From Couchioplanes caeruleus (GTDB lineage Bacteria; Actinomycetota; Actinomycetes; Mycobacteriales; Micromonosporaceae), in NCBI RefSeq assembly GCF_023499255.1, contig NZ_CP092183.1:937501-1001500 (forward strand): a stretch of 64,000 nucleotides of DNA, read 5' to 3'. A program made the position numbers and the translations under genes. Of the stretch, positions 505 to 14,035 are shown piece by piece. Under the pieces are notes generated by a model, which saw only the letters and a program-made list of their open reading frames with translations, made no database searches and was not told where the DNA came from. Numbering within the stretch: the stretch's first letter is position 1; every line of letters begins with the position of its first letter.

Positions 505-952
505 AGTCCGTTTTGAACGGGCATGAACGACACGTCCGTACTTTCGTCGAGCCGAACTGCCGATTCGGTCAGGCGGCTCGACCGTTCGGTCAGTCTCCTG
601 TCTACAAAAGCTGCATAATCCGGCATCTTGCCTTGCCGTCCGCTCCCGTGCGAGCCATCGTCTGTGCTGCCCGGATCGATGGTGGATCCGGGCAGATCGG
701 CACGCGCGGAGACCCCGCGATGCCGACGGAATCGAGTGACCGTGAGAGATGCGCCCCTATACGAGCAGTGATGACCGACCAGCGATGACGGCGTCTTCGG
801 ACGCGACTTCGCATCACACAAACGGTCCGGGTCAGGCTGCTCTTTCTCTTTGACACTCGTCGTGATGGAATCTCGGGGGCCCGACCCGGTGTGTCGGCCG
901 TGTGCGGTGCCCGGTGATCCGAAGGCCGGGTCCGAAACAGGAGGACGGTGAC
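505..952 (+). promoter_or_regulatory. non-coding leader region of the conservon operon
   Basis: No convincing gene lies in these 448 bases. A direct repeat TTCGGTCAG occurs at 564-572 and 585-593, 21 bp apart, so on the same helix face. It is followed by a possible -10 CATAAT at 614-619. An 11-bp inverted repeat with a 7-nt loop lies at 667-695. A perfect TTGACA is at 850-855 but has no well-spaced -10 partner. These could form an activated promoter and structured leader for the conservon, or the hairpin may end the add transcript. All functional reading is inference. Confidence 0.35.
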
Positions 953-3900
953 GTGAGCAAGCGCCCCAAGACGGCGAACGCGGTCATGTCGCGTCTCCGC
1001 CGGCCGGCCGGTCGGCTGCGGGATCTGCCGATCTGGTCGAAGCTCGGGCTCATCATGCTCGTGCCCACCCTGGCGACGATCATCGTCGGTACCAGCGGCC
1101 TGATCGACCACATCGACGAGGCGAGCAACGCCGAGCGCGCACGCACGCTGGCCGTGCTGTCGCAGGCCGCCGGTGGACTCGTCGACCACCTGCAGAACGA
1201 GCGCGCGTACGGCGTGATGATCGCGACCACCAAGCCGGACACGCCGGACCGCCAGGCGGCGACCCAGGCGTACAACGCCGAGCACCCCAAGGTCGACGCG
1301 GCCAAGCTGCCGTACGCCCAGCAGAAGGCCGCCCTCGACGAGGTGCCCGACCAGGTCGCCACCCTCCTCTCGCGGCTCAACTTCAACCTCGAAGAGCTGC
1401 CCTCCACCCGGAGCCAGACGGCCAACGGCCAGTTCAACCCCAAGGAGGTCGACAGCGCGTACAGCGTCGTGATCAACGACCTGCTGAACGTGCGCGACGC
1501 CTCCGCGCAGCTCGCCCAGGACACCGAGCTCAGCGACCGGCTGCGCGTGGTCGCCGCCGTCGCCCGGGCCAAGGACTACATCTCCCGCCAGCGCGACGTC
1601 GGCCACCGGGTGCTCGGCGAGGGCCGGCTCACCCCCGACCTGCGCCGCGAGCTCCTGCTCACCGACACCGGTTACACGATCGCCGACTCGTCGATGCGCC
1701 AGGTGGCCACCAACGAGGACAAGGCGCTCTTCGACCGCGTCGTCAAGGGCCCCGCCAAGCGCGCCGCGACCAACCTGACCGGCCCGCTGGCCGCGCTGGG
1801 CGCCGACAACATCACGGCGATCCCGTTCGACCGCACCAAGTGGGAAAGCGCGATGGTCGGTTACAACGGCCTGTTCCGCACGGTCGAGACCGATCTCGAC
1901 CAGCAGATCGTGGCCCAGGCCACCGACATCCGCGACCGCGTGCAGCGCCAGGTGTTCATCGAGACCAGCGTCCTGCTCGGCATGCTCCTGCTCGCGATCG
2001 TCTTCGCGTGGATCGTGGCCCGGTCGATGGCCCGCTCGCTGCGCGAGCTGCGCCAGGGCGCCCTGAACGTCGCCCAGTTCGGCCTGCCCCAGGCGGTCGA
2101 GCGGCTGCGTGATCCGGCGCTGACCGGCTCGCTGACCCCGGCGCAAGTGGCCGATCAGGTCGCCGAGCCGCTGCCCGTGCGCAGCCGGGACGAGTTCGGG
2201 CAGGTGACCGAGGCGTTCAACGCGGTCCACCTGGAAGCCGTCCGGACCGCGGCCGAGCAGGCCGCCCTGCGGTCCTCCGTCGCGACGATGTTCGTCAACC
2301 TCGCCCGTCGTTCGCAGATCCTGGTCGACCGGCTCATCGGTCACCTGGACCGGCTGGAGCGCGGCGAGGAGGACCCGGACCGCCTGGCCGAGCTCTTCCA
2401 GCTCGACCACCTCGCGACCCGGATGCGCCGCAACGACGAGAACCTCCTCGTTCTCGCCGGCGCCGACTCCACCCGCGTGCAGCGCGAGCCGGCCGCCCTG
2501 ATCGACGTGCTGCGCGCCGCGCAGTCCGAGGTCGAGCACTACACCCGCATCGAGTTCGGGATGATCGACCGGGACATCGAGGTGTCCGCGCACGCGGTCA
2601 ACGACATGGTCCACCTGGTCGCCGAGCTCTTCGACAACGCGACCGCGTTCTCGCCGCCGAACTCGCACGTCGTGGTCGAGGCGCGCCGCCTCGGCGACGG
2701 CGCGGTGCTCTCGGTCGAGGACCGTGGCATCGGCATCAGCCGCGAGCAGCTGCGCGACCTCAACGAGCGGCTGGCCAACCCGCCCATGGTGGACGTCGCC
2801 GTCTCCCGGATGATGGGCCTCGTCGTGGTCGCCCGCCTGGCCAACCGGCACGGCGTCAAGGTCGAGCTGCGGCCCGCCGACACCGAGCGGGGCACGGTCG
2901 CCGACGTCGGCCTGCCGGCCGGTGTCATGGTGACGGCCGGCTCGGCCGGTCGGCTGCCCAGCAGCGCCGCCCCCACGTCGTTCGGCGGCGCCGACCACCG
3001 GCCCGCCTTCGCCGAGCCGCCGCTGGCGCTCGAGAGCGGCGGCCGTGGCGGCTACCCGGGCGGACGCCCGTTCGACCCGAACCCGCCGATGCCCTCCGGT
3101 GGCATGCTCGGCACGGGCGCGGGCCGCTCGGTGCCGGCCTGGTCCGACCTGACCGGCGCGCCCACCAACGGCTTCGAGCCGGCCAACGGCTTCGGTGGTC
3201 CGTCCAACGGCTTCGGCGGCGGTGCCAACGGCTTCGGTGGCGGCGGCGCCAATGGATTCAGCAACGGCTCCACCGGCGCCAACGGCTTCCACGGCCCGCG
3301 CAGCAACGAGCCGATCCCGCCGCTGCCCCAGTCCGGCCCGCAGGGCTTCGCCGGCAACGACGGGCTGCCGCAGCGCCGCAACGGCGACGGGCCCCGGCCC
3401 GAGGACACGGGAGCCTTCGGGCACACCATCCCGCGCCAGCTGCCGCCCAGCCCCGAGACGCCGAGCCGGTCGCCGTTCGTGCCGCCGGTCTCCGCGCCCC
3501 CCGTCCCGCCGGTCTCCGCGCCGCCGGTGCCGTCCGCGCCGCCGTACGGTGGTGGCCGCCCGGTGTCGTCGCCGCCCGTCTCCGGCCCGCCGACCTCGGC
3601 GCCGCCGAACACGAGCCGCCCGCAGTCGGCCCCGCCGAACGCCGGCCGCCCGCAGTCGGCGCCGCCCGCGTCCCCGCCGGCCTGGCCGCCGGTCTCGGGG
3701 GAGCGTGACCACGGCACCCCGCACGTCCCGGAGAGCCTCGCGGCCGCCCTGGACATGACCGCCGAGCTGCCGCGGTACCGCCCGGAGCGGTCCGGCGCCG
3801 GCCCGCAGCCGCAGGTCGCGCCGCCCACGAACCCGCAGAACGCCACGCCGCCGAGCGAGGCCGAGCGGTCCGCCGCCGCCGCGGCGGCCGCGCACGAGGC

Positions 3901-4624
3901 GGCTGCCCAGCAGGCAGCGGCCGCGCAGGCCACCGCCGCGGCGCAGATCGCGGCCGCACAGGCGGCAGCGCGTCAGCGGGCCAACGGCGACGGGCAGTCG
4001 CAGTTCGCGGACGAGACGATGGAGCTGCCGATCTTCCGGGAGCTCGAGTCGGCCTGGTTCACCACCGCCCGGCCCAGCGAGCCGCGGAAGACCGAGCCGA
4101 AGCCATCGGCCCCGTCCAGCCCCTCGCCGGACGCCGACGTGGTGACCACCCAGCGCTTCTCCACCGGGGAGCCGGCCCGCCAGCCCGGCGTGCCGCAGCA
4201 GGCTCCCTCGCCGGAGACCCGCATCGACCGCGACCCCGCCACGGTGGGTGCGGTCGTGGCGAACGGCTCGGCGGCGAACGGCTCGGCCGGCGTGAACGGC
4301 ACGGCCGACGTCAGCACGGGCAACCCCTGGCAGACCGCGGCCGACGAGGGCTGGCAAGCAGCTCGCAAGGCCGCCGAGATGCCGGTGGAGACGACGACGA
4401 CGGCCGGTCTGCCGCGCCGTACGCCGATGGCACAGCTCGTTCCTGGTGGTGTGGACCGGGCCGAGACCTCCGTACAACGCCGCACCCCCGAGGCGGTTCG
4501 CGGGCTGCTGTCCGCGTACCACCGCGGTGTGCAGCGGGGTCGCACGAAGGATCAATCGACCAACCCGGAGGAGACTCCGGGAGGGCAGCAGTCCTCGCAG
4601 GCTGGCAAGGAGCATGAGGCATGA
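953..4624 (+). CDS. cvnA: conservon sensor histidine kinase-like protein CvnA (NIT-HAMP-HATPase)
   Basis: This is a membrane sensor kinase of the actinobacterial conservon type, 1223 residues. The GTG at 953 is chosen because AGGAGG sits at 939-944, 8 nt upstream. Visible in order are a TM helix (about 31-53), an extracytoplasmic nitrate/nitrite-sensing-like helical domain with an LQNERAYG motif, a second TM helix (about 334-356), HAMP, and an ATPase domain (about 525-655) with the N-box [13 protein letters not shown] and [10 protein letters not shown] Gly/Pro/Asn-rich tail of about 350 residues follows. The last 200 residues form a module ([36 protein letters not shown]) that recurs in the protein at 8243-10570. 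The stop overlaps the next start (ATGA). In conservons, CvnA, B, C and D are thought to form a membrane complex resembling eukaryotic GPCR/G-protein signalling. Confidence 0.93.
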
Positions 4625-5025
4625 CAAGTACGCAGGATCTGGGTTGGCTCCTGGCCAACTTCGCCGACCGCGTCCCCGGGGTTGCGCACGCGATCGCGGT
4701 CTCCGCCGACGGTCTGCTGCTCGCGGCCTCGCGGGACCTTCCCCGGGACCGCGCCGACCAGCTGGCGGCCATCGCCTCCGGCCTGGTCAGCCTGACCCAG
4801 GGCGCCGCGCGGTGCTTCGAGGGCGGCGCGGTGCTGCAGACGGTCGTCGAGATGGACAACGGGTTCCTCTTCCTGATGTCGATCTCGGATGGCTCGTCGT
4901 TCGCCGTCCTCGCGGCCCGCAGCTGCGACGTCGGACAGGTGGGCTACGAGATGGCGCTCCTGGTGGACCGCGTGGGCGAGGCCCTGACGCCGGCTCCGCG
5001 CTCGGCGGCCGGAGTGCTCGGCTGA
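4621..5025 (+). CDS. cvnB: roadblock/LC7 domain protein CvnB
   Basis: A 134-residue protein with the single roadblock/LC7 fold seen in conservon B proteins. It starts [20 protein letters not shown], followed by the characteristic [19 protein letters not shown] strand-turn. It overlaps cvnA by 4 nt (ATGA), so translation is probably coupled. Roadblock proteins bind and regulate small GTPases; the expected partner is the GTPase at 5473-6081, with CvnA and CvnC in the same complex. The length is normal for the family. Confidence 0.93.
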
Positions 5026-5111
5026 ACGGATTGCCTACCGGATCCGTCCGGTATCTGTCCAAAACCTTGACAACACGAGACACTTCTATGGGCCGAGGGA
5101 TGGGGTGAGCG
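5026..5111 (+). promoter_or_regulatory. cvnB-cvnC gap with hairpin and possible internal promoter
   Basis: An 86-bp gap interrupts an otherwise tightly packed operon. It contains a 7-bp inverted repeat with a 4-nt loop at 5036-5053 and a perfect -35-like TTGACA at 5067-5072. A weak TATGGG follows at 5087-5092, but the 14-bp spacing is short. It may be an attenuating hairpin followed by a secondary promoter for cvnC-cvnD. Confidence 0.3.
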
Positions 5112-5492
5112 GTGACGATGCCCGAACGCGATGAGCCGACCGGCGCACTGGTCAGACCGTACGCCGTGACCCGTGGCCGGACCCGGCCCAGGCTTGAGAT
5201 AGCGCTGGAAGCGCTCGTAGAGACCACCGTCCGCGGCCGTTCCACCGGGCCGGGCAGGGGCGGGAGCGAACACCAGTACATCGCGGCGATGTGCGACGGC
5301 GGCAGAGTTCAGTCGCTGGCCGAGATCGCCGCACGCATGCAACTACCGCTCGGGGTGGCTCGGGTGATCGTCGCCGACATGGCGCACGACGGCCTGGTGG
5401 CAGTTTACGAGCCGACGTCGCTGGAGGACGAGAACGATGCGGTGGGTACGGAACTGCTGGAAAGGGTGCTGAGTGGACTTCGCAGGCTCTGA
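5112..5492 (+). CDS. cvnC: DUF742 family protein CvnC
   Basis: A 126-residue protein of the DUF742 family, the third conservon component. It has a basic N-terminal stretch (RPYAVTRGRTRP), then a winged-helix-like region that aligns with the family (CDGGRVQSLAEIAARMQLPLGVARVIVADMA, given here only for its SLAEIAA and LGVARV cores), ending ELLERVLSGLRRL. The start is GTG at 5112, after a G-rich stretch. The 3' end overlaps the GTPase gene by 20 nt. It is presumed to couple the receptor kinase to the GTPase; the molecular role is not established by sequence. Confidence 0.9.
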   Translation: MTMPERDEPTGALVRPYAVTRGRTRPRLEIALEALVETTVRGRSTGPGRGGSEHQYIAAMCDGGRVQSLAEIAARMQLPLGVARVIVADMAHDGLVAVYEPTSLEDENDAVGTELLERVLSGLRRL

Positions 5493-6081
5493 CATGTCGC
5501 GCCGGCCGACCGCCGGGCGCGTGACATCGGCGAAGATTGTCATCGCCGGTGGGTTCGGCGTCGGTAAGACGACGCTGGTGGGGTCCGTTTCTGAGATCAC
5601 CCCGCTGACCACTGAGGCGATCATGACCTCCGCCGGTGTGGGCGTCGACGACAACCGGCAGGTGCCGGGGAAGACGACGACCACGGTGGCGATGGACTTC
5701 GGCCGCATCAGCATCGACCGGGACCTGATCCTGTACCTGTTCGGCACGCCGGGCCAGACGCGTTTCTGGTTCATGTGGGACGAGCTGGTCCGGGGCGCCA
5801 TCGGTGCGGTGGTCATGGTGGACACGCGTCGGCTCGCCGACTGCTTCGCCGCCATCGACTTCTTCGAGCATCGGCGGCTGCCGTACCTGGTCGCCATCAA
5901 CTGCTTCGACGGCATGCAGTACCACAACGCCCAGGACGTCCGCGACGCGCTCGCGATCTCCAGCGACGTACCCGTGGTGAGCTGCGACGCCCGCAACCGG
6001 GAGTCGACGAAGAACGTACTCATCTCGCTCGTCGAGTACGTCCTCACCATGCGCCGCTCGCGCGCGGTAGCACCGGCCTGA
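5473..6081 (+). CDS. cvnD: conservon small GTP-binding protein CvnD
   Basis: A 202-residue GTPase of the MglA/Ras-like conservon D type. The P-loop GGFGVGKTTLVGS, a switch region with KTTTTVAMDFGRI, and the G3-like LFGTPGQTRFWFMWDEL are seen. A degenerate G4 (AINCFD, in place of NKxD) and a G5-like SCDARN follow, as usual for this family. It starts at GTG 5473 inside the end of cvnC, which indicates coupling. No cytochrome P450 gene, often present as a fifth conservon member, follows. The operon ends at a strong hairpin terminator immediately downstream. Confidence 0.92.
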   Translation: MDFAGSDMSRRPTAGRVTSAKIVIAGGFGVGKTTLVGSVSEITPLTTEAIMTSAGVGVDDNRQVPGKTTTTVAMDFGRISIDRDLILYLFGTPGQTRFWFMWDELVRGAIGAVVMVDTRRLADCFAAIDFFEHRRLPYLVAINCFDGMQYHNAQDVRDALAISSDVPVVSCDARNRESTKNVLISLVEYVLTMRRSRAVAPA

Positions 6082-6091
6082 CCCGTCGTCG

Positions 6092-6124
6092 AAAGTCCCG
6101 CTCTGTCCGACAGAGCGGGACTTT
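6092..6124 (+). terminator. intrinsic terminator after the conservon operon
   Basis: A perfect 15-bp stem (AAAGTCCCGCTCTGT, 6092-6106, pairing with 6110-6124) with a 3-nt loop lies 10 nt after the cvnD stop. The descending arm ends in CTTTT. It is the cleanest terminator hairpin in the window. Confidence 0.9.
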
Positions 6125-6662
6125 TGCGTGCCCCGACCGGCCTCGCACCTTCCCGCCGCCTCCCGCGGGCGGGCTTCCCGTCGCTCCAGCGGACGACTGC
6201 CCGGCGGCCGGCGCTCGTCCGCTCGTCGGGCCCGGTGCTCTGGTCGTGGCGATCCCCCACCCCTGCGGAGCCGGGTCGCCTCGTCCCGCTCGGGCCCTCG
6301 GCGGCTGCGGTGTCACGCGTCGCGGGCGCCGGGTCGCCTCGTCGGGCTCGGTCCCTCGGCGGCTGCGGTGTCACACGTCGCGGGGCCGTGTCGCTTCGTC
6401 CGCTCACTGGCTGTGACGGCGGCACATCTCGCGGCTCTCTGCGGCGCGCTTGGGCTGCGGCAGCGTTCGCCGGACGGCCGCCCAGGCCCGTCATAGCCCC
6501 TCAGGCGCCCGCGAGCGCTTGACGCCGCCGGGGGGGCCGCCGCCCGGCCCTTCGGCGGTCCTTGCCCCGCTGAGGCTGTTGCCGTCCCACCGGATGGACG
6601 AGCCAGAACACGTCTTACCGGCAAGTCCCGGCAATCATCACATTGAGATAGCTCGATGTCTC
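6125..6662. repeat. non-coding gap with 57-58-bp imperfect tandem repeat
   Basis: No credible gene was seen. Two copies of a 58-bp unit start at 6273 and 6331, with a more decayed third copy from 6388. Each contains GGTCGCCTCGTC followed by CTCGGCGGCTGCGGTGTCAC. The rest is low-complexity GC-rich sequence. The repeats are contiguous, with no unique spacers. Confidence 0.6.
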
Positions 6663-6668
6663 TAGCCT
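6663..6668 (+). promoter_or_regulatory. -10 box TAGCCT, leaderless promoter of the CBM2 gene
   Basis: TAGCCT ends 6 nt before ATG 6675 and no ribosome-binding site is present. This matches the leaderless pattern repeated throughout the window. A TTGAGA at 6643-6648 may serve as -35, with a short 14-bp spacer. Confidence 0.55.
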
Positions 6669-6674
6669 GTGGGC

Positions 6675-7616
6675 ATGAACCCTCTGCCCTGGCTGGCCGC
6701 CCTGCTGACCGTGCTGATCCCCGCGCCGGCGTTCGCGACCCCGCCCGTACCGCCGACGGTCCGCGCCGACCTCCAGCGGACGGTGTTCAACAATGACCAG
6801 GTCGCCGGGTACCGCGTACACAACGACTCGCCCGTCACCGTGACCGGCTGGCGGCTGGAATTCGACCTGCCCGCCGACACCACCATCGCGACCAGCTGGA
6901 ACGGCCGCTTCGCGCGTATCGGCAACCACGTGACCGTACAACCCGAGTCGTGGAACGCGACGCTCGTTCCGGGCGGCTCCGTCGACCTCGGCTGGTACGC
7001 CAACGGCACCGGCGAACCGGCGAACTGCCGCGTCAACGGCCAGCCCTGCGACGGCCGATGGCCCGACGAGACCGACCCCACCCGCCCGTCGCCGCTGACC
7101 ATCGACACCAACGGCGGAGTCACCCTGCACTGGGCGGCCTCCACCGACGACCGCCAACTGCGCCACTACGAGGTGTACGAGAGCGGCACGCTGCTGACCA
7201 CCACCACGGACACCAGCTACGTCTTCCACACCGGCCCCGCGCTGCCGCCCCGGGTCTACGTCTTCCGCGTACGGGCCATCGACGCGGCGGGCAACTACTC
7301 GGCGAGCGCGTACGCGTTCCTGGGCACACCCCAGCTGTCCCCGCCCCCGGCCCCCGGCCGCCTGGCAATCACCCCGGCCGCGGCCCCCGGCACCCAGCGA
7401 CTCACCTGGGACCAGCCACTCCCGCCGCCGGTCGGCCCCGCACCTGTGATCGCGGGCTACGAGGTGTCGCTGGACGGCACCCCGGTAGCCGTCACAGGTG
7501 CCCTGCGGTACGTCGCACCAGTCCCGCCGGCGGGCGAACACACCTGGTCGGTACGCGCAATCGACGCACTGGACCGGCTCTCGGACCCGGGCCGGCTGAC
7601 CCAGACGGTCAGCTGA
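6675..7616 (+). CDS. secreted CBM2 and fibronectin type III protein without catalytic domain
   Basis: A 313-residue exported protein. The signal peptide (MNPLPWLAALLTVLIPAPAFA) probably ends near residue 21. Residues about 30-118 look like a family 2 carbohydrate-binding module: VTGWRLEFDLP, TSWNGRF, ESWNATLVPGGS, then NCRVNGQPCDG, with Trp residues where cellulose/chitin-binding CBM2s place them. Two fibronectin type III-like domains follow (about 133-215 and 220-313). There is no glycosidase or oxidase domain, so it may anchor or target something to polysaccharide, or be a structural remnant. The start could also be GTG 6669; ATG 6675 is preferred by -10 spacing. Confidence 0.82.
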   Translation: MNPLPWLAALLTVLIPAPAFATPPVPPTVRADLQRTVFNNDQVAGYRVHNDSPVTVTGWRLEFDLPADTTIATSWNGRFARIGNHVTVQPESWNATLVPGGSVDLGWYANGTGEPANCRVNGQPCDGRWPDETDPTRPSPLTIDTNGGVTLHWAASTDDRQLRHYEVYESGTLLTTTTDTSYVFHTGPALPPRVYVFRVRAIDAAGNYSASAYAFLGTPQLSPPPAPGRLAITPAAAPGTQRLTWDQPLPPPVGPAPVIAGYEVSLDGTPVAVTGALRYVAPVPPAGEHTWSVRAIDALDRLSDPGRLTQTVS

Positions 7617-8242
7617 CGGCTCAACGCCGCGTCGGCCCGGGCGGGCGGTGGGCGCCGCCGGCGGGTAGGCAGGGCCGGGCCGTCGGCAGGTCGCTACGGA
7701 CGGGCGGCAGAGCTGACCGGTGGGCGGTCCCCCGCAGATAAGCCCGCCCGGATGTGGTGGGCCGGCGCCCGAGGCGCAAGCGGTGGCCGGACCCGGGCCA
7801 GACGCGGCAGCCGGGCCCAGACCGGACCCGAGCCGGACCGGACCCGGGAACCGGACCCAGAGCCGGACCGGGACGCCCAGGTCGGGCTCGGGGCCGGAGG
7901 CGCACGCCGGGCCCAGGGCCAGACGCGCACGCCGGGCCCAGGGCCGGATGCGTAAGTCGGGTCGAGGGCCGGATGCGCACGCCGGGCGCGGTGTGGCAGA
8001 CGCGGCGGGCAGGCCCGGTTGGCCAGCCCCCGTGGGCGTGGCCACGCGGCCGGGCCGTGGGCAGGCCTGGGCAGGTACGCACGGGCAGGCTCATGGAGCC
8101 GGCAGGGGAGCAGCTTGCCGGCACCGACGACAAAAGCCAGCAGTCAGCCAGCTGAGGACGCGCCGGTGGAGGTCACGCGGCGCCCGGATTCACCGGCAAA
8201 TACGCACAGGCACGACCGGCGGGGGCGACCCGGCCGGAGAGA
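7617..8242. repeat. non-coding gap with 25-bp tandem repeat array
   Basis: No gene is supported in these 626 bases. Between about 7875 and 7990 there are nearly five copies of a 25-bp unit. Copies at 7900-7924, 7925-7949 and 7950-7974 share the CGGGCCCAGGGCC-type core, with related flanking copies. Upstream (7780-7870) is a more degenerate run of GACCCGG/GCCGGACC motifs. The array has no unique spacers and lies between two convergent genes. Confidence 0.6.
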
Positions 8243-10570
8243 TCAGCGGCTCGGGTAGCCCGCGTTCCGGTAGTCCTCGGACTCCTGCCCGTCCCGGCTG
8301 AAGTCCCAGCCACCCGCCGCCTCACGCCCCGGCCGGCCGCCGATCGCGTACCCGCCGATTTCCTGCCCGCGACGCCAGCCGCGGAAGTAGCCGGTGGTGT
8401 GGGCTGCGATGCTGGCCGCGTCGCGGACGATGCGGAGGGGGCGTTCCTCGCGGAGCGGGGAGCCCGGTACGAGGTTGGCCTGCGGTACGCGCTTCGGCAG
8501 GCCGGCCGGCGTCTCGGCGGCGATCTCGGGCGCGGAGGCCTTCTCGGCCGCGCGCCAGCCCGTGTCCATCGGGCTGCTCCAGTCGAGGTCGGCCGGGGCG
8601 GCTGCCTCGTCGTGGCCGGTGAACCAGGCGGAGCGGGCGGCCGCGAAGATGAGGAGGTCGCCGTCGCCCTCGGCCGGAACCGGCGGGGTGGTGCTGCGGT
8701 CCAGGGCCGTGAGGGTGGGTGCGGCGCGGCGGGCCGTGGCGCGGCCGTTGCGGCCGCCCCGGTCGTCGACGAGGCGCAGGGGCGGCGGGTCGGTGCTCGC
8801 CGTGACGTTCGGTGGGGCGGTTTCCAGGCCGCCCAGGCCGGACTCCACGAGGCGCAGCGACGGCGGCTCCTTCGGCATGTCCTGCCACGGCGGCTTGACG
8901 CGGCCGTCCGAGGGCGGGCTGCTGACCGCGGCGGGTGGCGGGGTGGGCGCGTCGTCGGAGGAGTTCAGCAGGGGCCAGTTGGCCCGCGAGCCCGGCTCGG
9001 GCATCTCGGTGGAGCCGCGCTGAGCCGGCATGGGCAGCGAGAAGTCGGTGGCGCCACCCGGTGCGGCGGCGGACCCGTTGCGGGTGGAGGGCCGCGGCGG
9101 GATGACCGTGCGCTGGCGTTCGGCGCGGGCGCTGCTCATCGCCGCGTTCGTCAGCGTGGGGCGGAACGGCTGCCCCGCTTCCGCCGGCGGCACCGACGAG
9201 GGGCGCGAGGCCGGCGAGGTGGGACGGGGTGCCGACGAGCCGGGTCGGGCGCCCGGGGTGATCGGGGTCATGCCCGGCGGGGGCGGCGGCACCGACACCG
9301 GGCGGCTGGCCGGGCCTGCCGCCGGAGTGCGGGTGGGCAGGCTCGCGGCGGGGGCGGCCGGCGGCGGAGTGACCGGGCGCGGCGCCAACGGCGGCGGCAT
9401 GATCGGGTCGGGCGCGACCGGCGGCGTGGTGATCGGGCGCGGCGTGGCCGGACCGCCGCTCGCGGCGGCGGGCTCGGGACGGCCGCGGCGGCCGATGCGG
9501 GTGCCGGTGTCGCCGGGGCGGCCGAGCCGGGTGCCGGTGTCGCCCGGGCGGCCGAGCCGGGTGCCGGTGTCGCCGGGACGGGCGAGCCGCGTGCCGGTGT
9601 CGCCGGGACGTACGGAGGACAGGCTGGCGGCGGGCTCGGCGGCGCGGCGGGATCCGGCCTGGCGGCGGCCCGGTACCGGGTTTGCTGCCTGCTGGCTGAC
9701 CCGCGCGGCGAGCGTGCCGACGAGCGCCTCGCAGGCGGAGTCGCAGGACTTGACGGCGCCGATGGCGTGCCGGACGGTGTCGGCCGCCGCCGGGGCGAGG
9801 GACTTGTTGACGCCACCGCGGCGCGGGGACTCGTTGATCGCCACGACCAGCGCGGTGACGGCCGCGACGACCTGGTCCTCGGTGCCGGCGCCGGCGCGGG
9901 TCAGCTCGGCGGCGACCTCCTCGGCGACCTGCTGCGGGTCGGCGCCGCGGCCGGTCAGGCGGCCGGGCTCGGGCAGCGCGTCGAGGACGGCCAGCGCGAG
10001 CGGGTGCGCGGGGTCCGGGTACGCCCGCAGCGCGGCGGGATACAGCTCGCGCAGCACCTCACGCAGGGCGATGGCGGAGGCGTACCGGCCGTTCAGCATG
10101 GCGACGTGCGCGGCGAGTACGGGCTTGTAGCTCACGAGGTCGCGCGGGGTGGGAACCGTGACGGCGGCGATGGCACCGGCCTGCAGCGCCCGGGCGAGGC
10201 CCACGGCGCGGCGGGCGGCCGAGGGTGCCGCGATCTCCTCGGGGGACTCGTCGTCGGCGAAGCGCTCGGCGAAGTCGTCGGCCGAGTCGTCGTCGGCCAC
10301 CACGAGGGGACGCCCGGCGGCGGTCAGCAGCGAGGTGACCATGTGGTCGTCGCTGTCGGCGGCCACCGCGGCCTCGGCGAAGCCGCTGGTCCGTTCGACG
10401 AGCAGCATGCCGAGCTGGGCGTACCCGGCCGGGTCGTCGCTGATCTCGTGAACTCCGAGCAGCCGTCCTGCGTCGTCCACCACGGCGATGGTCAGGGCGG
10501 AGCCGGCCGAGGCCGAGCGCACCGTCTCATCAGCCGACGCCAGACCGCAGTACACGCGCACGAGCGCCAC
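8243..10570 (-). CDS. IS110-transposase-like N-domain fused to a conservon-type C-terminal module
   Basis: A 775-residue protein of three parts. Residues about 1-250 have the layout of an IS110-family DEDD transposase N-domain: AVVDDAGRLLGVHEISDD, GYAQLGMLL, AAGRPLVV and the helix LREVLRELYPAALRAYPDP. The catalytic pattern and the second IS110 domain are not evident, so this looks like a domesticated relative; that is inference. Residues about 260-600 are Pro/Arg-rich and include four copies of RPGDTGTRLG. The C-terminal 150 residues (SAWFTG, DTGWRAAEKA, AGLPKRVPQANLVPG, YFRGWRRGQ) match the end of CvnA. The start is GTG 10570, with GGAGGAGG just upstream. It sits 76 nt after the acidic protein gene, probably in one operon. 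Confidence 0.75.
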   Translation of the reverse strand: MALVRVYCGLASADETVRSASAGSALTIAVVDDAGRLLGVHEISDDPAGYAQLGMLLVERTSGFAEAAVAADSDDHMVTSLLTAAGRPLVVADDDSADDFAERFADDESPEEIAAPSAARRAVGLARALQAGAIAAVTVPTPRDLVSYKPVLAAHVAMLNGRYASAIALREVLRELYPAALRAYPDPAHPLALAVLDALPEPGRLTGRGADPQQVAEEVAAELTRAGAGTEDQVVAAVTALVVAINESPRRGGVNKSLAPAAADTVRHAIGAVKSCDSACEALVGTLAARVSQQAANPVPGRRQAGSRRAAEPAASLSSVRPGDTGTRLARPGDTGTRLGRPGDTGTRLGRPGDTGTRIGRRGRPEPAAASGGPATPRPITTPPVAPDPIMPPPLAPRPVTPPPAAPAASLPTRTPAAGPASRPVSVPPPPPGMTPITPGARPGSSAPRPTSPASRPSSVPPAEAGQPFRPTLTNAAMSSARAERQRTVIPPRPSTRNGSAAAPGGATDFSLPMPAQRGSTEMPEPGSRANWPLLNSSDDAPTPPPAAVSSPPSDGRVKPPWQDMPKEPPSLRLVESGLGGLETAPPNVTASTDPPPLRLVDDRGGRNGRATARRAAPTLTALDRSTTPPVPAEGDGDLLIFAAARSAWFTGHDEAAAPADLDWSSPMDTGWRAAEKASAPEIAAETPAGLPKRVPQANLVPGSPLREERPLRIVRDAASIAAHTTGYFRGWRRGQEIGGYAIGGRPGREAAGGWDFSRDGQESEDYRNAGYPSR
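9491..9610 (-). repeat. four tandem 30-bp repeats inside the 775-residue protein gene
   Basis: Four near-identical 30-bp units at 9491, 9521, 9551 and 9581 encode four copies of the decapeptide RPGDTGTRL(G/A). The unit length preserves the reading frame, so copy number can vary without breaking the gene. Confidence 0.9.
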
Positions 10571-10646: not shown

Positions 10647-11555
10647 TCAGTCGCGCCAGTCCACAGCGGCAGAGATCTTGCCGATTACCGAACGCCATCC
10701 CAGGCTCGCCTGTTGTGCGCCGATTTTACGGAGCTTGCGGCGACCGAAGAAACCGCCCATTCCGCCACTTTCCGCGGACCGGAGGGACTCGTCCAGGTCA
10801 TCGAGTGGTGAGCCGGACGCCAGGGCCAGGATCACCGGCTTCAGGCGCAACGCGTGACCCAGGTCCCGGGCCACCTCACCCGCGGCGATGAGCAGGGGCA
10901 GGTCCCAGGTGTCGTGCCCGCCGCGCAGGTTCTCCACGACGAGGTCCAGCTCGTAGCGGTCCTCCGGCAGCGGGTCGACGTCGGACGACTGTACCCGCTG
11001 GGCCAGCGTCGGCCAGGTGTCCAGTTGTGCGAGATCGTTCGGCGCACCCGAATGAATGAAGGAGACCAGCGACTCGGGGCTCTTGAACGCGAGAAGTCTG
11101 CCCTTGTGGCTCAGGAAGACGGGCACCTCCTCGTCGTCCGTCCGGTCGGCCTTGGCCTCCGGCTCGTCGTCCTTGAAGTCCTCGGGGTCGGGCTCCTCGA
11201 CGACCTCGCCGTCCTCGTTGCGCAGGACGCCGTCGTCGGACCGGTGGGTCTTCGAGCCGGGGGCGTCCTCCGTGACCAGCGCGGCGAACTCCTCGTCGAC
11301 GATGACTTCCTCCTCCTCGGCGGCGCGCGCGGCGGCCGCGCGCTCCCGCGCCTCGAAGGGGTCGTCCTCGTCGGCCTCGACCTCGGTGAGGGTGAGCTCC
11401 GAGGCCTTCCGGTACGCCCGGAGCGTCAGCGCGACGCCGCCGGGAAGGGCGATCTCCACCGGCTCGATCCGGACCTCGTCCCAGAGCGCACGGCCCGAGG
11501 GGCCCTCTTTGACCGTCGAGGCCTCGGCGGCCTCTTCGGGAGACTGGCTGGCCAC
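10647..11555 (-). CDS. conserved acidic actinobacterial protein of unknown function
   Basis: A 302-residue soluble protein. The start is GTG 11555, because GGAGG lies 5 nt upstream; an upstream in-frame extension lacks such a signal. Residues about 1-60 contain VRIEPVEIALPGGVALTLRAY. The middle (about 75-155) is very acidic (EEEEVIVDEEF, EEPDPEDFKDDEPE) and probably disordered. The C-terminal half (PVFLSHKGRLLAFKSPESLVSFI onward, shown here by SHKGRLLAF and DTWDLPLLIAAGE) looks folded and ends with a basic FFGRRKLRK patch. I recognise it as an actinobacterial conserved family sometimes loosely labelled DNA primase, but see no primase motifs. It is probably co-transcribed with the downstream gene at 8243-10570. 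Confidence 0.7.
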   Translation of the reverse strand: MASQSPEEAAEASTVKEGPSGRALWDEVRIEPVEIALPGGVALTLRAYRKASELTLTEVEADEDDPFEARERAAAARAAEEEEVIVDEEFAALVTEDAPGSKTHRSDDGVLRNEDGEVVEEPDPEDFKDDEPEAKADRTDDEEVPVFLSHKGRLLAFKSPESLVSFIHSGAPNDLAQLDTWPTLAQRVQSSDVDPLPEDRYELDLVVENLRGGHDTWDLPLLIAAGEVARDLGHALRLKPVILALASGSPLDDLDESLRSAESGGMGGFFGRRKLRKIGAQQASLGWRSVIGKISAAVDWRD

Positions 11556-11652
11556 GCTGACCTCCGGATGGGTTCTCGCACGCTGTTCGGATGGGTGAGT
11601 CTGCGCACACACCTTAGTGGTCGCTCCTGGGAGGGACCCGACCGCGGTCCGC

Positions 11653-12609
11653 CTAGAAGCCCTTGGGGTGCCAGACGGTCTTGGTCTCCAGCAGCGCGGT
11701 CATCGGCCCCAGGCCCGGGTCGGCCGTGAAATCCGCGCCGTCCGCCGGGGGCCGGACCACACGCTTCAGGCTGCCGGCCGCGGACCGTTCGAGGTCGGCG
11801 GCGAGCGCCGGGTCGGTGACGCCGGTCAGGTCGAGGGCGTTGACGTCGTCGTGCGACGCCAGCCAGGGCGCGGTCTCGGCGGCGTGCCCGGTGAGGATGT
11901 TGACCACCCCGCCCGGCACGTCGGAGGTCGCCAGCACCTCGGCGAGGGTCACGGCGGCCTGCGGCGTGGCGGCGAGCACCACGACGGTGTTGCCGGTGAC
12001 GATGGCCGGGGCGATCACGCTCACCAGGCCCAAAAACGAGGCCGGCGCCACGACGCCCACGACGCCGGTGGGCTCCGGCGCGGAGATGTTGAAGTACGGG
12101 CCGGCGACGGGGTTCGCGCCGCCGTGCACCTGGGCGAGCTTGTCGGACCATCCGGCGTACCAGACCCAGCGGTCGACGGCCGCGTCCACCTCGGCGCCCG
12201 GCACGCCCAGCGCCACGAACTCCGCCCGGCGGGCCTCCAGCATCTCGGCGACCCGGTAGAGCACCTGTCCCCGGTTGTACGCGGTCGCGCCGGCCCACTT
12301 GGCCTGGGCCTTGCGGGCGGCGATCACGGCATCCCGGGCGTCCTTGCGCGAGGCGAGCGCCACGTTGTCGCCGTCCACCAGATACGTCCGTCCTGACTCG
12401 CTGCGCGGGAAGGCGCCGCCGATGTACAGCTTGTAGGTCTTGCGGACGGCGAGCCGCCCGGACGTGGCGCGGGTCGCGACGGCGGTGGCGGCCGGGACCG
12501 GGGTCGCGGTGACCGTCTTGGCCAGCGCCGCCTTGCGGACGGCGACGGCCTTGCCGGCGGACTTGTCGGACCCGCCCTTGCGGGGGCGGTCGGACGATGA
12601 CTCAGGCAA
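11653..12609 (-). CDS. degenerate, non-catalytic aldehyde dehydrogenase homologue
   Basis: About 318 residues. After an Ala/Lys/Thr-rich N-terminal tail (about 55 residues) it matches the NAD-binding half of aldehyde dehydrogenases: YKLYIGGAFPRSESGRTY, YNRGQVLYRVAEMLEAR, WVWYAGWSDKLAQV, EPTGVVGVVAP, GNTVVVLAA and GGVVNILTG. The sequence then diverges and stops without the catalytic Glu (LELGGK) or Cys regions, so it cannot be an active ALDH. Such partners are found beside a full ALDH in related actinobacteria, suggesting a regulatory or structural subunit. TTG 12609 overlaps the preceding stop region; GTG 12642 is an alternative start. Confidence 0.8.
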   Translation of the reverse strand: MPESSSDRPRKGGSDKSAGKAVAVRKAALAKTVTATPVPAATAVATRATSGRLAVRKTYKLYIGGAFPRSESGRTYLVDGDNVALASRKDARDAVIAARKAQAKWAGATAYNRGQVLYRVAEMLEARRAEFVALGVPGAEVDAAVDRWVWYAGWSDKLAQVHGGANPVAGPYFNISAPEPTGVVGVVAPASFLGLVSVIAPAIVTGNTVVVLAATPQAAVTLAEVLATSDVPGGVVNILTGHAAETAPWLASHDDVNALDLTGVTDPALAADLERSAAGSLKRVVRPPADGADFTADPGLGPMTALLETKTVWHPKGF

Positions 12610-14035
12610 GGTACGCCTCCAGGCCGTGGCGGCCGCCTTCACGGCCGTAACCGGACTCCTTGTAGCCGCCGAACGGCGACGTCGGATCGAACTTGTTGAA
12701 CGTGTTGGCCCACACCACGCCCGCGCGCAGCTTGTCGGCGACCGCGAGGATCTGCGAGCCCTTGTCGCTCCAGATGCCGGCGGAGAGGCCGTACGGGGTG
12801 TTGTTGGCCTTCTCGATCGCCTCGGCGGGGGTGCGGAACGTGAGCACCGACAGCACCGGGCCGAAGATCTCCTCGCGGGCGATCCGGTGCGCCTGGGTGA
12901 CCCCGGTGAAGATGGTCGGTGCGAACCAGAAGCCCTGCGACGGCAGCGTGCACGGCGGCGACCAGCGCTCGGCGCCCTCCTCGGCGCCGATGTCGGACAG
13001 CGTACGGATGCGCTCCAGCTGCTCCGCCGAGTTGATCGCGCCGACGTCGGTGTTCTTGTCCAGCGGGTCGCCGACGCGCAGCGTGGCCATCCGGCGCTTG
13101 AGCGAGTCGAGGAGCTCCTCGGCGATCGACTCCTGGACGAGCAGCCGGGAGCCGGCGCAGCACACGTGCCCCTGGTTGAAGAAGATGCCGTTGACGATGC
13201 CCTCGACGGCCTGGTCGATGGGGGCGTCGTCGAAGACGATGTTGGCCGCTTTGCCGCCCAGCTCGAGGGTCAGCCGCTTGCGGGTGCCGGCGACCGAGCG
13301 GGCGATCTGACGGCCCACCTCGGTGGAGCCCGTGAACGCGACCTTGTCGACGCCGGGATGCTCGACGAGCGTGCGCCCGGTGTCGCCGGCGCCGGTGACG
13401 ATGTTGACCACGCCCGGCGGCAGGTCGGCCTGCCGGCAGACGTCGGCGAAGAACAGCGCGGAGAGCGGGGTCGTCTCGGCCGGCTTGAGGACCACCGTGT
13501 TGCCGGTGGCCAGCGCGGGCGCGATCTTCCACGCGAGCATCAGCAGCGGGAAGTTCCACGGGATGACCTGCGCGGCGACGCCGAGCGGACGCGGGTCGTC
13601 GCCGAAGCCCGCGTACTTCAGCTTGTCGGCCCAGCCCGCGTAGTAGAAGAAGTGGGCGGCGACCAGCGGCAGGTCGACGTCGCGCGACTCGCGGATGGGC
13701 TTGCCGTTGTCGAGCGACTCGAGCACGGCCAGCTCGCGGGAGCGCTCCTGGATGATCCGCGCGATGCGGAAGAGGTACTTGGCGCGCTCGGCGCCGGGCA
13801 GCGCGGACCAGGGACCGAACGCGCGACGGGCGGCGGCGACGGCCCGGTCGATGTCCTCCGGCCCGGCGGTGGAGACCTCGGCGAGGACCTCCTCGGTGGC
13901 CGGGTTCACGGTCTTGAAGACGCCGCCCGAGGAGGCCGGCGGGACGAACTCGCCGTCGATGAAGAGGCCGTACGAGGGCGCGATGTCGACGACCGAGCGC
14001 GACTCAGGGGCGGGGGCGTACTCGAACATCGCCAT
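12602..14035 (-). CDS. aldehyde dehydrogenase (NAD(P)+-dependent)
   Basis: A 477-residue full-length ALDH, cytoplasmic, oxidising an aldehyde to the acid. The motifs VIPWNFPLLM, GNTVVLKPAE, FTGSTEVGRQIA, the catalytic-base segment LELGGKAANIV, the nucleophile segment GHVCCAGSR, and EEIFGPVLSVLTF are all intact. The ATG at 14035 overlaps the deoC stop by one base, so the two are translationally coupled. This placement suggests it removes the acetaldehyde produced by deoxyribose-phosphate aldolase; the true substrate cannot be read from sequence. Confidence 0.93.
   Translation of the reverse strand: MAMFEYAPAPESRSVVDIAPSYGLFIDGEFVPPASSGGVFKTVNPATEEVLAEVSTAGPEDIDRAVAAARRAFGPWSALPGAERAKYLFRIARIIQERSRELAVLESLDNGKPIRESRDVDLPLVAAHFFYYAGWADKLKYAGFGDDPRPLGVAAQVIPWNFPLLMLAWKIAPALATGNTVVLKPAETTPLSALFFADVCRQADLPPGVVNIVTGAGDTGRTLVEHPGVDKVAFTGSTEVGRQIARSVAGTRKRLTLELGGKAANIVFDDAPIDQAVEGIVNGIFFNQGHVCCAGSRLLVQESIAEELLDSLKRRMATLRVGDPLDKNTDVGAINSAEQLERIRTLSDIGAEEGAERWSPPCTLPSQGFWFAPTIFTGVTQAHRIAREEIFGPVLSVLTFRTPAEAIEKANNTPYGLSAGIWSDKGSQILAVADKLRAGVVWANTFNKFDPTSPFGGYKESGYGREGGRHGLEAYLA

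Follow-up and report, generated by a model that had tools for sequence, protein, structure and literature searches.

Why would a protein that resembles a transposase end in the tail of a signalling kinase? This question is raised by a stretch of 64,000 nucleotides of Couchioplanes caeruleus (contig NZ_CP092183.1, positions 937,501 to 1,001,500; hereafter the window), which is part of a genome of 8.4 Mb in one contig. The window holds a conservon, with cvnA, cvnB, cvnC and cvnD in this order on one strand (902-6081, +), and a protein of 775 residues encoded at 8243..10570 (−), for which we use the name TLP. CvnA (902..4624, +) is a conservon kinase of 1240 residues with NIT, HAMP and HATPase domains (Pfam NIT 2.1e-38, HATPase_c 5.4e-12, HAMP 1e-5), and its C-terminal module recurs at the end of TLP. 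We propose, with a probability of roughly 60%, that TLP is a domesticated, dead transposase remnant that has turned into an accessory protein of the conservon (CvnABCD), its tail docking on a roadblock protein. The presence of the kinase tail on a former transposase suggests that the latter was recruited as an extra part of a G-protein-like signalling system.

The first-pass annotation of this DNA had claimed that the C-termini of CvnA and TLP share five motif blocks, and all five are present in both proteins, in place and in the same order. In CvnA, the module occupies residues 1042-1213 (4025..4540, +; LPIF..SAWF, D.GW.AA, GLPRR.P, LVPG), as delimited by the tail alignment, hhalign and the positions of the motifs: LPIF/SAWF at 1042-1053, GW at 1150, GLP at 1169, LVPG at 1179 and YHRG at 1206. 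The GLPRR at residue 1169 provides the LPxR by which the C-terminal extension of CvnA is recognised. In TLP, the module covers residues 635-736 (8363..8668, −) and reads DLLIFAAARSAWF, DTGWRAAEKA, AGLPKRVPQANLVPG and RIVRDAASIAAHTTGYFRGWRRGQ, with LLIF/SAWF at 639-650, GW at 671, GLP at 690, LVPG at 700 and YFRG at 728. The SAWF block lies farther upstream in CvnA because the spacer is longer there.

Pro, Ala and Gly are abundant in both proteins, and a Pro-rich linker precedes the module, as would be expected if the likeness were an artefact of low complexity or composition. This explanation is practically negligible. With the low-complexity filter and compositional statistics switched on, BLASTP still aligns the two C-termini across GW, GLPxR, LVPG and YxRG at an E value of 8e-12. 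The shuffle test named in the first-pass annotation left the claim standing: the Smith-Waterman score is 137, whereas 2000 shuffles averaged 41 and none rose above 89. Comparing a profile of 18 TLP tails with one of 16 CvnA tails by hhalign yields an E value of 1.5e-19 over 80 columns. The IF..SxWF block occurs in none of the 1934 other six-frame open reading frames (ORFs) of at least 300 residues in the same DNA. It is found in 107/107 TLPs and 89/119 tail-bearing CvnAs, counts that are not independent since many of the sequences are close orthologues, and it precedes the LPxR block in all 85 CvnAs checked. LP.R lies within the last 330 residues of every counted TLP (107/107) and tail-bearing CvnA (119/119). 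The tail consensus reads roughly W..aD.GW.aA...T..GLPxRxPxxxLVPG...R.PE.VR..lS.yq.GvxrGR; in more remote conservons it is reduced to an LPRR.RQ..LAPQLR-like block plus the helix, and some have no visible motif. On these alignments, the ordered module shared by CvnA and TLP is real homology.

Who else carries this tail? The first-pass annotation had named a hidden Markov model search as a check against composition-biased matches. When run with TLP tails only on 60 genomes of the class (cut-off E ≤ 0.01), it recovers conservon kinases, with 39 matches in 19 genomes, 36 of which have a DUF742 (CvnC) gene following within 2 kb. The remaining three are TLP itself and two weak strays elsewhere (E 0.0023 and 0.0028). 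A CvnA-tail profile finds matches in 128/296 class genomes and 39/115 genera. At each of 40 class loci, a non-random sample picked for taxonomic spread among the matches listed, the bearer is a CvnA-type kinase with cvnB following within about 250 bp. Because the profile matches fall on CvnA-type genes, the module is identified as a C-terminal tail conserved among the conservon kinases of actinomycetes, and TLP is the sole non-kinase bearer found. None of four short tail ORFs that were fetched as candidates for other architectures provides a new one: in L198 and L200 a frame change has split a CvnA, L199 contains masked bases, and the contig of L201 ends before any kinase part can be seen.

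A C-terminal LPxR extension of the conservon kinases CvnA (also MfpE) is already in print (Wuichet and Sogaard-Andersen 2014, PMC4316618), and the shared module corresponds to this extension. Whereas LPxR alone is named as conserved in the accessible text of that paper, we find an ordered set of IF..SAWF, D.GW..A, GLPxR.P, LVPG and a basic, helix-like end, in addition to a bearer that is not a kinase. The C-terminal domain of MfpE is described, in the part of PMC13015309 at hand, as having no notable sequence conservation. The terminal regions of CvnA8 are described as unstructured and its phosphorylation target is called unknown in the available text of PMC13343842.

At its other end, TLP has a domain (residues 1-290; 9701..10570, −) that justifies the label 'transposase-like' of the first-pass annotation, being homologous to IS110 transposases by profile matches. 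TLP alone gives no Pfam or NCBIfam match at E ≤ 0.1, hence no HATPase or kinase core, and is thus not a CvnA; PHROGs yielded no match for it. Eight of the 16 N-domains in the TLP alignment match PF01548 (the IS110 DEDD family) at E ≤ 1, with a best value of 1.4e-10; the window copy is not among them. A profile built from the N-terminal halves of five IS110 relatives matches 105/107 TLPs. The profile of the Tnp half of the same five relatives (PF02371-type, with the catalytic Ser) matches 0/107, even at E < 10. All four DEDD residues are intact in none of the 107 TLPs in two alignments, and the first Asp is kept in none of them (also 0/141 in a separate alignment). These matches and alignments show the N-domain to be the RuvC-like and coiled-coil half of an IS110 transposase, with neither the Tnp half nor the DEDD site.

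In IS621, the RuvC and Tnp domains form one composite active site, and mutating D11, E60, D102, D105 or S241 abolished recombination (PMC11208158). TLP should thus not work as an IS110-type transposase, since the DEDD residues and the Tnp half, both needed in IS621, are gone. While TLP has the RuvC-like and coiled-coil half in common with IS110 (DEDD) transposases such as IS621, it differs from them not only in these losses but also in its fixed chromosomal place, its long linker and its foreign C-terminal tail. No Rfam family or tRNA is present in the 64-kb window, and hence nothing that would point to a leftover bridge RNA of a known family. Across the class, the TLP-family profile has matches in 35/296 genomes, including IS110 transposases, with E values down to 2e-30 outside the family. 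No TLP was seen there: each of the six loci inspected there codes for an IS110 transposase that retains the first Asp, and by eye, among the matches listed, no N-domain match lies near a tail match.

Is this dead protein being kept? A strong C-tail match (E ≤ 4e-18) is present in 147 of 150 genomes of the family, and the other three are assemblies of 490-810 contigs. In five of five TLP pairs, dN/dS ratios, taken from computed dN and dS, measured 0.11-0.17 for the N-domain and 0.05-0.13 for the tail. The linker (residues 291-634; 8669..9700, −), which is Pro-rich, variable and of low conservation in the TLP alignment, reached 0.12-0.38 and lay above both flanks in 5/5 pairs. These ratios show, at the level of coding sequence, that purifying selection maintains TLP in the Micromonosporaceae as defined by GTDB, Glycomyces included. 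The holders of diverged TLPs include Glycomyces, Haloglycomyces, Natronoglycomyces, Salininema and Stackebrandtia. The TLP of the window shares 97% identity with a Nucisporomicrobium flavum protein, which marks the strain as a relative of Actinoplanes. The records listed for TLP relatives are mostly named 'transposase' or 'hypothetical protein'. The window genome holds one copy of TLP, not the multiple copies at differing sites that would indicate mobility. Elsewhere, a second TLP copy of 476 residues with a tail occurs in genome G073 (L206:4094-5524), with no conservon gene in the fetched 10 kb. Two further features of the linker may be recorded: four tandem repeats of RPGDTGTR(L/I)(A/G) at 9491-9610 (−) and, further along, an EPPxLRLV motif that is kept in at least 18 of 19 aligned TLPs.

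The genomic setting of TLP is recurrent too. In the window, TLP is convergent with cvnD. The conservon genes behind cvnA are cvnB (4621..5025, +), a roadblock/LC7 gene (Robl_LC7 8.8e-23) whose start codon overlaps the cvnA stop; cvnC (5112..5492, +; DUF742 1.5e-28); and cvnD (5473..6081, +), the conservon small GTPase (ATP_bind_1 1.2e-33, weak Ras-type matches), for which the name CvnD follows from gene order. The comparison covers 121 TLP loci, made up of the window, 20 genomes of the family picked for spread, 80 named loci (Actinoplanes, Micromonospora, Plantactinospora and others) and 20 loci picked for TLP divergence, neither set of 20 being random. Sixteen named contigs end too early to be informative, 12 of them inside TLP and four 491-1219 bases after it, the latter with neither cvnD nor a roadblock gene behind TLP in that stretch. 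All 105 informative loci have a convergent conservon, a roadblock gene of their own directly behind TLP, or both. A convergent cvnD is present at 93 of the 105; in 76 of these, the 400 bp behind TLP contain no roadblock gene, and all four cvn genes were fetched in 67 of the 76. The roadblock gene directly behind TLP, which we name RB2, occurs on the same strand at 29/105 loci, 17 of them with convergent cvnD, its domain starting 10-137 bp past the TLP stop. It is present at 20/20 diverged-TLP loci. At none of the 29 RB2 loci does a same-strand cvnA, cvnC or cvnD occur in the 3 kb preceding or the 4 kb following the TLP end.

RB2 can be compared with the MglB/roadblock proteins CvnB and MfpD. 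It matches the CvnB roadblock profile, yet forms a separate group: a branch (93/100) separates the 14 sampled RB2s (of 29) from the CvnB groups in a tree built from 105 roadblock proteins, the short alignment leaving the root open. Whereas CvnB pairs with the kinase, RB2 pairs with TLP, and no RB2 was found in the window genome. Of the six roadblock genes in that genome, five lie in conservons and the sixth is a poor fit to both the CvnB and the RB2 profile. A 'second small clade' of orphan actinobacterial MglBs is mentioned in PMC4316618. In a TLP tree of 54 rows with a midpoint root, the RB2-bearing lineages are deep and the RB2 label needs two changes. Because the deep lineages bear it, RB2 looks ancestral and lost in the crown.

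These observations are consistent with an origin in which an IS110 copy landed in a duplicated conservon. The first half of the transposase gene would have fused to the 3' end of a cvnA copy, which contributed linker and tail, and the cvnB copy behind the fusion would have survived as RB2, to be lost later in the crown of Actinoplanes and Micromonospora. We favour this origin because the order of IS110 first half, linker with CvnA tail, and roadblock gene matches the expected leftover. The same order is also the residue expected if an IS110 insertion had broken a duplicated conservon and left TLP and RB2 behind as mere relics that play no part in conservon signalling today, and the absence of RB2 from the crown fits decay. 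A relic is nevertheless very unlikely, given the strong C-tail match in nearly every genome of the family and dN/dS values well under 1 in N-domain and tail in all five pairs.

What, then, might the tail do? From the anatomy and linkage of TLP, which can be read off the alignments and loci, we infer docking. The first-pass annotation had taken the module for a docking or localisation tag common to one signalling assembly. The part about one assembly fits the 40/40 kinase loci and the 105/105 TLP loci; the part about docking is a proposal, with a roadblock protein, CvnC or CvnD as candidate partners and localisation as the alternative. Under the accessory-protein proposal, CvnA would use the tail, with its LPxR and basic, helix-like end, as an arm to hold its roadblock protein. 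TLP would offer the same arm to RB2, or to CvnB where RB2 has been lost. It could thus act as a soluble partner lacking a kinase, either a client of CvnA or its competitor, and bias the CvnD GTPase switch. Its input would be whatever the dead RuvC domain binds, nucleic acid or protein. TLP is probably a dimer via the retained coiled coil and might in this way offer two tails to a roadblock dimer. In the Ragulator, LAMTOR1 wraps roadblock dimers, and a disordered tail that holds roadblock proteins is the type of contact proposed here for the TLP and CvnA tails; the Ragulator is eukaryotic and unrelated in sequence, so that the parallel is an analogy only. For conservon 9, Komatsu 2006 (as cited in PMC8510531) found CvnA9 to bind CvnB9 and CvnC9, with CvnD9 binding both as well. 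An arm for holding the roadblock protein is the simplest mechanism, since tail and roadblock gene stayed together over deep divergence with no copy of the kinase, DUF742 or GTPase gene there, and since CvnA9 binds CvnB9.

A bolder reading, which we consider tentative and rather doubtful, makes TLP a second receptor that has no kinase. Here, a dimer of the dead IS110 RuvC and coiled-coil domains would still recognise nucleic acid, or a protein it once bound, and report to the roadblock/GTPase pair via the tail derived from CvnA. If true, a mobile-element recombinase would have become a sensor of a bacterial G-protein system.

If the tail holds a roadblock protein, it might be expected to track cvnB. 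We scanned 84 loci for the helix motif, namely 80 of 93 typed DUF742 places outside the window genome and four inside it, and retained 81 CvnA C-termini for which a kinase was detected and the ends differed; the threshold was the 99% shuffle level. The motif exceeds this threshold in 52/73 CvnAs with an adjacent cvnB and in 3/8 without, a weak trend in the expected direction. The rule 'no cvnB, no tail' seemed true in the window genome, where the first kinase of L202 obeys it, but failed at scale (3/8 and 21/73). The tail and a neighbouring cvnB are not strictly coupled. The L202 locus itself (2356-6025, at about 4.99 Mb of the window genome) is a conservon remnant in which a tail-less CvnA-like kinase is directly followed by cvnC, with neither cvnB nor cvnD next to it. 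Other pairs of kinase and cvnC that lack cvnB occur at L235, L249, L257, L263, L269, L274 and L283. Among the loci checked, no in-frame neighbour joining tail and cvnB was found by motif.

Because the correlation with cvnB is weak, CvnC or CvnD may also be considered as the partner of the tail. In this alternative, the LPxR arginine may reach into a GTPase that has no arginine finger of its own, and TLP would be a second copy of the arm. The LPxR motif and the missing arginine finger of the GTPase group are cautiously noted in PMC4316618, and LP.R stands near the end of all counted TLPs and tail-bearing CvnAs. Three CvnAs (L263, L269 and L283) lie straight before cvnC with no cvnB and keep the helix. 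These cvnB-less exceptions, together with the published discussion of LPxR and the missing finger (PMC4316618), make docking on CvnC or CvnD a serious rival, if an unlikely one. At the 29 TLP loci with a roadblock gene right behind, the absence of a same-strand cvnC or cvnD argues against it. So does L175:1137-4022, where a kinase with a full tail is followed by a roadblock gene and no cvnC or cvnD lies in the next 1.1 kb.

Alternatively, the tail could be a localisation or membrane-association tag without a specific conservon partner, TLP and CvnA merely co-localising. The basic, helix-like end of the module and the lack of a kinase or other recognised partner domain in TLP would suit such a tag. 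We regard it as quite unlikely, since SAWF, GW, GLPxR and LVPG blocks in fixed order exceed the needs of a membrane helix and the inspected tail bearers are conservon kinases and TLP, bar the two weak strays.

Several observations weigh against a roadblock-docking accessory protein. The adjacency of tail and roadblock gene in both bearers could stem from one duplication and is no independent proof of contact. The helix motif stays below threshold in 21/73 CvnAs with an adjacent cvnB, several of which have no visible motif, and it is kept in the three cvnB-less CvnAs named above. At 12 of the 29 RB2 loci, a convergent cvnD was not seen in the fetched stretch. In the roadblock tree, whose alignment is short, a long, fragmentary and ungrouped CvnB row (L262) falls among the RB2s. 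No RB2 was found in the window or its crown relatives, so that docking on CvnB in these genomes is an extrapolation. Lastly, the TLP N-domain profile has no relative among PDB sequences at E ≤ 0.1; N-domain and tail returned chance-level rows only (E 0.18 and above).

Should the proposal of a domesticated accessory protein hold, TLP would be a new sort of conservon accessory, derived from a transposase. Known accessories are CvnE, a cytochrome P450, and CvnF, a GAF protein (PMC8510531, PMC13343842), and CvnF8 is reported to raise CvnA8 autophosphorylation (PMC8510531, PMC13343842). Like them, TLP is an extra gene kept beside cvnABCD. Whereas cvnF8 lies directly downstream of cvnD8, TLP is convergent, carries the kinase tail and stems from a transposase. 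In the literature covered (titles and abstract openings, with most subscription journals outside coverage), we found no report of TLP, RB2 or the tail on a non-kinase. LPxR was already known (PMC4316618); the dead, truncated transposase domain and the dedicated roadblock gene behind TLP in early-branching relatives go beyond the first-pass annotation. For the route of the conservon signal from kinase to roadblock protein and GTPase, the transplanted, ordered tail points to a candidate piece of CvnA, and tail plus RB2 offer a ready-made minimal construct. TLP would thereby represent half of an IS110 recombinase domesticated into apparent signalling and kept across a bacterial family.

The gap between cvnD and TLP is of widely variable length and looks like a spot open to insertion; in the window it holds a CBM2/fn3 gene (6669-7616, +), which among the 80 named loci is found at this spot only in the nearest relative (L038). 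Upstream of TLP, a gene of 321 residues (10647-11612, −) has a partial match to the SatS export chaperone (E 2.7e-9, far under the model cut-off) and may share a unit with TLP, because it adjoins TLP in 19/20 family loci. Further upstream of the TLP unit follows a pair of aldehyde dehydrogenase genes (11653-14035, −), which occupies the same place at the Actinoplanes-type named loci (L038-L081 and L094) and at about half of the 20 family loci.

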